Translations under genes and position numbers: made by a program
In this document: one piece after another, positions 2,760 to 14,098 of the stretch
How the letters are laid out: every line of letters begins with the position of its first letter
Position numbering within the stretch: position 1 is the first letter of the stretch
Assembly: GCA_015488615.1 (NCBI GenBank)
Contig: WFNM01000005.1
Span: 1-37,538, forward strand
Source: Sulfurimonas sp.
GTDB taxonomy: Bacteria; Campylobacterota; Campylobacteria; Campylobacterales; Sulfurimonadaceae
Direction of reading: 5' to 3'
Length of the DNA: 37,538 nt
The notes under the pieces: generated by a model
Told to the model about the DNA's origin: nothing
Database searches by the model: none
What the model saw: the letters and a program-made list of their open reading frames with translations, nothing else

Positions 2760-3324
2760 ATGAATATTCTCCTGATGGAAGATGATCCTGTTCTCTCAGA
2801 TATACTACTCGACTTTTTACATGAAAGTTAGTCTGTTGATTATGCTTTTAACTCTGAGGAGATACACACACAACTCTCAAAAAAAAAGTATGACCTTTTC
2901 ATTTTCGATATAAATGTCACAGGACAAAATGGCCTTGAACTTTTAGAAGAACTTCGTGAGTATAAGGATACTACTCCTACTATTTTTATAACTGCATACA
3001 CAGATACAGCCTATCTCAAGAGGAGTTTGTCAAAGACACTACTCATGAGTTAAATACTCCTATCACCGCATTAATGATGTCTACCTCACGACTAAAAACA
3101 AAAAAAACATTACTGTTACAGAAGATCTGGAGTCTTGTCCTCTTAGCATAGCCCCTACAAAAGCAAAGATGCTCATCAATAATCTTCTTAGTAATAGTAT
3201 AAAATACTCCACACTAAACACAAGTATCTCGCTTGTAGAGTCTATAGTTAAAGAGCATGAGTACAGACTTGAAATAGATGCAGAAGTCAGAGAAGGAACG
3301 TCCATTACACTTCATTTTAGCTAA
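2760..3324 (+). pseudogene. Decayed two-component system: response-regulator receiver joined to histidine-kinase fragments
   Basis: Frame of 2760: MNILLMEDDPVLSDILLDFLHES*SVDYAFNSEEIHTQLSKKKYDLFIFDINVTGQNGLELLEELREYKDTTPTIFITAYTDTAYLK with TAG at 2829. Shifted frame: EFVKDTTHELNTPITALMMSTSRLKTKK (H-box). Third frame after A7 at 3101-3107: PTKAKMLINNLLSNSIKYS (N-box), ending ITLHFS*. Confidence 0.85.
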
Positions 3325-9423: not shown

Positions 9424-9880
9424 AACGACCTCCTTGTTTTTCTAAAAGTGTAGAAAGTATTTTTAAAGAAGCATCCATCCCACCACTTTTTTCAGCTCTA
9501 AGAAGCTGCTTATAGAGTGGTTTGATAATATTTAAAGCCTGCTCGCTTGGTTTTCTTCTTACTGAGTAATACCCAACAATTTTTCCATTAGCATCATAAG
9601 AGGGTGTTACATTGGCTAAAACCCAGTAATAATCACCATTTTTTGATTTGTTCATCACATAAGCATTTATCTCTTTGCCTGCTTGTATATAATCCCACAA
9701 GAGCTTAAAAATAATACGCGGCATATCTGGATGTCTTACAATGTTGTGTGGTTTTCCCAGTATTTCTGTTTCTGCATAACCAGCAAGCTTCATAAAAAGC
9801 TCATTCCCATAGGTTATACGACCTTTTATATCTGTTTTTGAGATAATAATCTCAGAGTCTAAAAATGTAAGTTCTGCCAT
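9398..9880 (-). CDS. Aer/CetB-type PAS domain protein
   Basis: Aer-like [96 protein letters not shown]. Overlaps the MCP start by 26 bp. Confidence 0.88.
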
Positions 9881-9914
9881 AGTTGCTCTTTGTATAAAGA
9901 TAATTTATGATGAA

Positions 9915-9920
9915 ATTATA
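9915..9920 (-). promoter_or_regulatory. Predicted -10 hexamer (TATAAT) for the PAS-MCP operon
   Basis: Reverse complement of attata at 9915-9920; 18 bp separates it from the upstream G9/C9 tract. Confidence 0.45.
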
Positions 9921-9938
9921 TAACTTTTATGGCTATAT

Positions 9939-9947
9939 GGGGGGGGG
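9939..9947. repeat. G9 homopolymer tract (C9 on the sense strand of the PAS-MCP operon)
   Basis: ctatatGGGGGGGGGtaataac, in an otherwise AT-rich intergenic region at the -35 position of the predicted promoter. Confidence 0.9.
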
Positions 9948-9978
9948 TAATAACTCTAATGTCACATTACAGAGACAA

Positions 9979-10001
9979 TTGTGTTACAATTGGCAACACA
10001 A
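9979..10001. repeat. Inverted repeat TTGTGTT-acaattggc-AACACAA
   Basis: 7-bp arms, 9-nt loop, between the HpcH/HpaI-family stop (10010) and the G9 tract; no obvious U-tract. Confidence 0.5.
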
Positions 10002-13937: not shown

Positions 13938-14083
13938 CTTTTTAAATCAGACAATTTTTGTCCGCTTTTGATTTATGACATAATAATAGCTTTGTGATTA
14001 TGATTTGCTTAAGGAAAACTGACAGTTGAATTACTTTAAGAATTGAAAAGTTCCTAGAATCACAATTTAAGTTAATTTTAAAT

Positions 14084-14092
14084 GGGGGGGGG
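14084..14092 (+). repeat. G9 homopolymer tract in the FIST-GGDEF operon promoter
   Basis: tttaaatGGGGGGGGGtacaatataac; directly abuts a TACAAT -10-like hexamer, 38 bp upstream of the ATG at 14130. Confidence 0.9.
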
Positions 14093-14098
14093 TACAAT
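14093..14098 (+). promoter_or_regulatory. Predicted -10 hexamer TACAAT for the FIST-GGDEF operon
   Basis: tacaat immediately 3' of the G9 tract, 31 bp before the start codon. Confidence 0.45.

Follow-up and report, generated by a model that had tools for sequence, protein, structure and literature searches.

A poly-C tract of varying length at the putative −35 position of a cetB-cetA-like promoter in Sulfurimonas, a candidate promoter contingency locus

A run of nine cytosines upstream of an energy-taxis-type operon of Sulfurimonas sp. is, with good comparative support, a real conserved feature: it is situated in a probable promoter, 17–18 bp upstream of a putative −10 box conserved in four species. 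On balance, we regard it as probably an element of the cetB-cetA promoter that is prone to slippage and has been maintained, and thus as a promoter contingency locus. The window analysed here is the whole stretch of 37,538 nucleotides on which the operon resides, and its features are collected in Table 1.

On the sense strand, the order upstream of cetB is C9, ATATAGCCATAAAAGTTA (18 nt), TATAAT (9920–9915), 34 nt and the ATG at 9880. Provided that this TATAAT serves as the −10, the tract would extend from about −39 to −31, which is the place of a −35 hexamer. A preliminary description of this DNA had placed a G9 in the −35 position ahead of a CetB/CetA-like operon, its sense-strand C9 ending 18 bp before a perfect TATAAT; both statements are borne out, with the G9 at 9939–9947, and the tract is conserved in four species with lengths of 7–9.

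Table 1. Features of the window around the two G/C tracts (window coordinates; G000 is the genome of the window).
Feature	Position	Strand	Remark
CetA-like chemoreceptor, 474 aa	7999..9423	−	two-helix hairpin, MCP signalling domain, C-terminal CZB domain
CetB-like PAS protein, 160 aa	9398..9880	−	closest solved structures are Aer aerotaxis receptors
putative −10 box TATAAT	9915..9920	−	relatives: TATAAT, TATTAT, TATACT
tract-to-−10 stretch, 18 bp	9921..9938	−	18, 18, 18, 17 bp in four species
C9 tract (G9 on +)	9939..9947	sense strand −	kept as C7, C9, C8 in G134, G083, G086
28-bp block, palindrome to tract	9948..9975	−	constant length in G000, G083, G134
palindrome CAATTGT-N3-ACAATTG	9976..9992	−	candidate operator or terminator stem of upstream gene
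TTTAAG element, 21 bp upstream of −10	14066..14071	+	
G9 tract inside spacer of putative FIST-GGDEF promoter	14084..14092	+	
putative −10 box TACAAT, immediately next to G9	14093..14098	+	
FIST sensor-domain protein, 380 aa	14130..15272	+	
GGDEF protein, 256 aa	15265..16035	+	

The presence of two G9 tracts in one AT-rich window had been pointed out, and this holds: two such runs were recovered in 0 of 100 dinucleotide-preserving shuffles of the 37.5-kb sequence (36% G+C; mean 0.03), and all other G/C runs of the window are of 5 nt or fewer. The complete assembly, a draft of 1.84 Mb in 150 contigs with 86.5% completeness, contains three G/C runs of at least 7, each of exactly 9, together with 23 runs of exactly 6; within this assembly, 17 of the 18 runs of 6 examined fall in coding sequence, whereas each of the three G9 runs lies between genes. 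The cetB tract is a mononucleotide run of at least 7 that exceeds chance. A simple Markov estimate predicts 0.28 runs of at least 9 per genome, so that the count of three across the genome represents, taken alone, a modest excess only. Both tracts of the window stand before sensory operons, as had been stated. The third tract of the genome, at 9963–9971 of contig C8 (L007), is not near a sensory operon: it separates a Y-family DNA polymerase gene from the beginning of a divergent gene and is 61 bp from the contig end, which cuts off the divergent gene.

The label "CetB/CetA-like" proved fair. The first protein of the operon matches PAS_3 (2e-14) and an Aer structure (E 5.6e-32), and the adjacent receptor carries a membrane hairpin and an MCP signalling domain, as expected of a CetA/CetB pair. 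As in Campylobacter jejuni CetA/CetB (PMC2628428), a separate PAS protein and a membrane-hairpin receptor are encoded together and an RHx(E/D) motif is present: RHPD at residues 49–52 of the CetB-like protein agrees with the R50-H51-x-E53 motif of C. jejuni CetB (PMC2628428). Unlike the C. jejuni pair, the Sulfurimonas genes have reading frames that overlap by 26 nt, and the receptor has an extra CZB domain, of the zinc-binding type. The receptor also gave no match to HAMP, even at E 10, although a diverged HAMP is possible, and for this reason we limit the assignment to "CetA-like" rather than strict CetA.

Searching 135 genomes of the genus with the CetB-like protein yielded three close orthologues, all of which have the tract in the same place, as C7 in G134 (97% identical), C9 in G083 (89%) and C8 in G086 (90%). 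In the four species, including that of the window, whose CetB proteins are 89–100% identical, the tract lengths are therefore 9, 9, 8 and 7, a comparison between species rather than between strains. The distance from tract to −10 is held at 17–18 bp (18, 18 and 17 in the relatives, 18 in the window). Likewise, the palindrome is found 28 bp from the tract in G000, G083 and G134, with arms of 6 bp in G083, and the tract-proximal part of the intervening block, TGACATTAGAgTTATTA, is well conserved. Because the 28-bp block and the −10 spacing are both constant in these three genomes, the tract alone varies in length between the palindrome and the −10. The intergenic flanks diverge across the four species while the tract persists, and G086 retains its C8 though its upstream flank has diverged to the point of being no longer alignable. 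The gene upstream of the promoter encodes a C-C bond lyase in G000 and a Sel1-repeat protein in G083 and G086, and this difference suggests that the conserved block is part of the cetB promoter and not of the upstream gene. The palindrome, which keeps this distance of 28 bp in the three species, may be an operator, perhaps an activator site, or may be the stem of a terminator. Orthologues with CetB identities of 77% or less have no tract, and 18 orthology-distant loci are without one.

If the tract is a promoter contingency locus, the gain or loss of a cytosine by slippage would leave the 18-bp spacing between tract and −10 unchanged and would displace all upstream sequence, conserved block and palindrome included, by a single bp with respect to RNA polymerase. 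Such a shift in register would alter transcription of the energy-taxis pair cetB-cetA, either stepwise, in the manner of a rheostat, or as an on/off switch. The parts of this scheme that we infer are the use of this −10 by RNA polymerase, the dependence of transcription on tract length and the variation of length within a population. In its support, C9, C7, C9 and C8 occur at the same place with constant flanking spacings in four species; the intergenic location of such tracts across the genus and their bias to signalling genes (see below) also speak for it, with the Bordetella fim and Helicobacter pylori sabA promoters as precedents. Counted against it are the length of 9 shared by all three tracts of this assembly, the failure of the C-at-−35 arrangement to recur in the genus (see below) and the missing tract in the orthologues of at most 77% identity; lengths of 7–9 are also short for high switching rates.

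The wider distribution of such tracts was assessed in 100 genomes of the genus, in which G/C runs of at least 8 were collected and 164 distinct runs were examined with neighbourhoods of up to 6 kb. There are 0–15 such runs per genome, with at least one in 83 of the 100 genomes, and their lengths are 8 (72 runs), 9 (59), 10 (23), 11 (7), 12 (2) and 13 (1), which puts 131 of the 164 at 8–9. Intergenic sequence contains 125 of the 164 (76%) vs 14% expected from the non-coding share of genomes that are about 86% coding (binomial p about 1e-71), and the intergenic share changes with run length from 16% (runs of 4), 29% (5) and 21% (6) to 60% (7), 71% (8), 82% (9) and 80% (10 or more). G and C are equally frequent on the sense strand (53/52). 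Pfam analysis of 105 genes downstream of tracts identified 10 with GGDEF, 8 with EAL, 8 with response-regulator, 7 with PAS and 3 with CZB domains; among 150 control genes, first in their operons elsewhere in the same loci, there is at most one each for GGDEF, EAL and response regulator, the control listing comprising families with at least two members. When the domains were recounted with home-made profiles, GGDEF was present in 11/105 vs 1/150 and 4/150 in controls, and the genomic background is about 37 GGDEF genes per 2-Mb genome, or roughly 1.8% of genes for an assumed gene number. Fisher tests returned a p value of 0.0008 for GGDEF; with the signalling domains pooled and cetB orthologues left out, p was 0.0002. 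Both values are uncorrected for kinship among genomes and were obtained with crude gene calling, phylogenetic redundancy retained and unequal contributions of the genomes. The data support an enrichment of long G/C tracts before GGDEF, EAL, response-regulator and PAS genes in this genus, most clearly before c-di-GMP genes. The scan proposed in the preliminary description, of runs of at least 8 upstream of MCP and GGDEF genes, thus has a divided outcome: GGDEF genes are enriched (10/105 vs at most 1/150), whereas MCP genes among all tracts are not (1/105 vs 3/300 in controls, home-made profiles). The accompanying expectation that tracts are placed non-randomly is upheld across the genus by the intergenic excess and the bias to signalling genes.

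In the same genus genomes, the distance between tract and contig start is at most 100 bp in nine cases, where 1.5 would be expected. This excess suggests assembly breaks at tracts of heterogeneous length, a reading with which it is consistent and for which it is not specific, as insertion sequences or poly-G artefacts could also produce it. A C tract at the −35 was also evaluated as a recurrent architecture of the genus and rejected, since 12 loci conform to it vs about 7 in the reversed control, and the −10 distances downstream of C tracts in the genus loci have no peak.

The species comparison and the census bear on several other explanations of the cetB tract. The fixed distance to the −10 in four species is what one would expect if the tract were a static promoter element, retained for the shape it gives the DNA or for a protein that binds it, whose differences between species reflect drift without phase variation; the clustering of lengths at 8–9 throughout the genus and the uniform length of 9 of the three tracts in the window's genome also fit. 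We consider this explanation unlikely, given that tract length differs (7, 8, 9, 9) while the adjacent spacings are constant, and that a fixed binding site should tolerate interruptions and intermediate G7 runs are rare. Less probable again is neutral slippage, by which a chance G/C run expanded and has persisted without function in tolerant intergenic DNA. Intergenic placement is strong and increases with run length, though intergenic DNA is more AT-rich; the tract persists in G086 beside flanks that cannot be aligned; and the classes of downstream genes are non-random. All three findings speak against this neutral account, to which the Markov expectation of about 1.7 runs of at least 8 per genome, close to the average found, and the 18 distant loci without a tract would lend themselves.

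Control through a leader RNA has a precedent in Helicobacter pylori, whose tlpB mRNA carries in its leader a variable G repeat to which the small RNA RepG base-pairs (PMC8295292), and the conserved block upstream of the cetB tract might be taken to indicate an upstream promoter that reads through the tract and supplies such a target. This is very improbable here: the sense strand has C rather than G, a search of the window for known RNA families returned none, and, with a conserved −10 on its downstream side, the tract would be left out of the main cetB transcript. We attach still less weight to the notion that the tract marks the target or scar of a transposon inserting into G runs. An element with ends GGCTTAACTTAATGGCGTTG does have G8–9 on both sides in other members of the genus, yet in none of the four species does such an end adjoin the cetB tract, and the ends are present at only about ten census loci. 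This probable insertion sequence, itself an observation apart from cetB, spans about 3002–4606 of L182 and about 3000–4604 of L184 (both from G116), with ends also in L181, L340, L342 and L352; it has a 454-aa reading frame, and three DDE_Tnp_1 proteins are encoded among the tract-adjacent genes. Its G8–9 flanks look as if it had inserted into poly-G and duplicated the tract. Finally, a sequencing or assembly artefact seems hardly credible for a tract seen in four separate assemblies within unique conserved flanks, even though the assembly is a draft in 150 contigs and poly-G artefacts occur among the genomes used, one of which has a contig beginning with 63 C's; the exact length may be off by one.

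The second tract of the window, at 14084, belongs to a promoter type that recurs in the genus, TTTAAG-N21-TANAAT, in which the G run forms the end of the N21. The pattern GGGGGGGTANAAT has 29 matches in 135 genomes vs 4 for the reversed pattern (p about 5e-6), and TTTAAG, with at most one mismatch, occurs 20–22 bp upstream of the −10 in 14 of the 29 (shuffles, 1.3; maximum, 5). The total distance from TTTAAG to the −10 stays at 20–22 for tracts of 7–9, and an ATG often follows 27–34 nt downstream. Genes behind promoters of this type include those for FIST (4), MCP (5), further Cache-domain (1), response-regulator (2), HD (1) and related outer-membrane-like (4) proteins, and chemoreceptors stand out solely in this subclass, in which G abuts the −10. 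Of the FIST orthologues, those of G144 and G133 have a G9, and that of G034 has no tract yet retains TTTAAG-N21-TATAAT, indicating that the G run occupies a spacer of otherwise fixed length. In the porA and opc genes of Neisseria, tracts are located in the promoter spacer. The FIST tract resembles these in that its G run falls between a −35-type element and the −10, and the cetB tract differs from them in geometry. The −10 of the FIST-type class also matches the gnTAnaAT consensus of Campylobacter and Helicobacter sigma-70 promoters, which have no −35 box (PMC3847290). In at least four species, an outer-membrane-like family (RDTTINxYGVGAK..; L348, L360, L366, L368, L373) has its TAAAAT −10 next to a run of G8 or G9, and the tract length thus differs between related promoters.

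As judged from their arrangement, the two window tracts are different devices, a sense-strand poly-G against the −10 for FIST and a poly-C at the −35 for cetB. The "atG9ta" context that they had been said to share is present on the plus strand and disappears relative to transcription, where cetB reads ..taC9at.. and FIST ..atG9ta.. in opposite orientation; with the differing geometry, this led us to reject a shared regulatory context. Nor is there support for the coordinated control of the two tracts that had been proposed, since tracts on opposite strands and of different geometry would slip independently, which would produce combinatorial diversity rather than coordination. The bet-hedging between motile and sessile states suggested along with it is not supported either. 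Relatives in which the search recovered no FIST gene, or no tract before it, still have the cetB tract, G134 giving no FIST match and the best matches in G083 and G086 being 37% and 32% identical, in assemblies that are incomplete. A reverse reading of the cetB tract, as a G-abutting-−10 promoter facing away from cetB, was also rejected, because TAATAAC rather than TANAAT follows the G9 and G083 and G086 have no divergent gene.

Promoter homopolymer switches are known mostly from pathogens, in which they vary surface structures. The C-stretch promoters of Bordetella fim2, fim3 and fimX vary in length between isolates, and this influences transcription (PMC1891110). The cetB promoter is like these in having a sense-strand cytosine run with a conserved box upstream, and the C7–C8 of fimX is of similar length; unlike them, it is without a known activator and stands before the genes of a taxis receptor pair, not before a fimbrial antigen gene, with a predicted effect on transcription. 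In H. pylori, of the same phylum, tuning by a T tract in the sabA promoter has been demonstrated experimentally (PMC4081817). There too a homopolymer adjoins the −35 position and changes the register between upstream sequence and core promoter, whereas sabA has a T tract and an adhesin gene and cetB has a C/G tract. H. pylori tlpB (PMC8295292) shares with cetB a variable G/C homopolymer before a chemoreceptor gene, but its G repeat lies within the mRNA leader, whereas at cetB the sense strand has C and the tract precedes the −10.

These comparisons and the census suggest that the device is also employed by environmental relatives, for sensory and c-di-GMP genes, and if so, behavioural bet-hedging would become testable in cultured strains. 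The point of interest is the genus-wide bias to sensory and c-di-GMP genes in what are probably free-living bacteria. More speculatively, and with greater doubt than belief, one might picture free-living sulphur-oxidising Campylobacterota as carrying distributed poly-G and poly-C promoter switches that prefer sensing genes (c-di-GMP enzymes, FIST, chemoreceptors and response regulators) and that would make clonal populations mixtures of navigation and attachment settings. Our literature search found no paper linking diguanylate cyclases to homopolymeric-tract phase variation, and the Arcobacter butzleri genome paper describes hypervariable G:C tracts as absent there and in Sulfurimonas denitrificans (PMC2147049). 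Were the picture true, it would be phase variation of behaviour, not of surface antigens, in a group with one member described as tract-free (PMC2147049).

Individual genomes provide further instances of tracts near c-di-GMP genes. Both tracts of G011 (L172, L173) precede such genes, of the REC-EAL and GGDEF-EAL types, and in G084 a single G9 (L167, around 3000–3008; C1:2044080–2044088) stands between two genes, 5 nt ahead of one for 157 aa and 224 nt ahead of a divergent one for a GGDEF protein.
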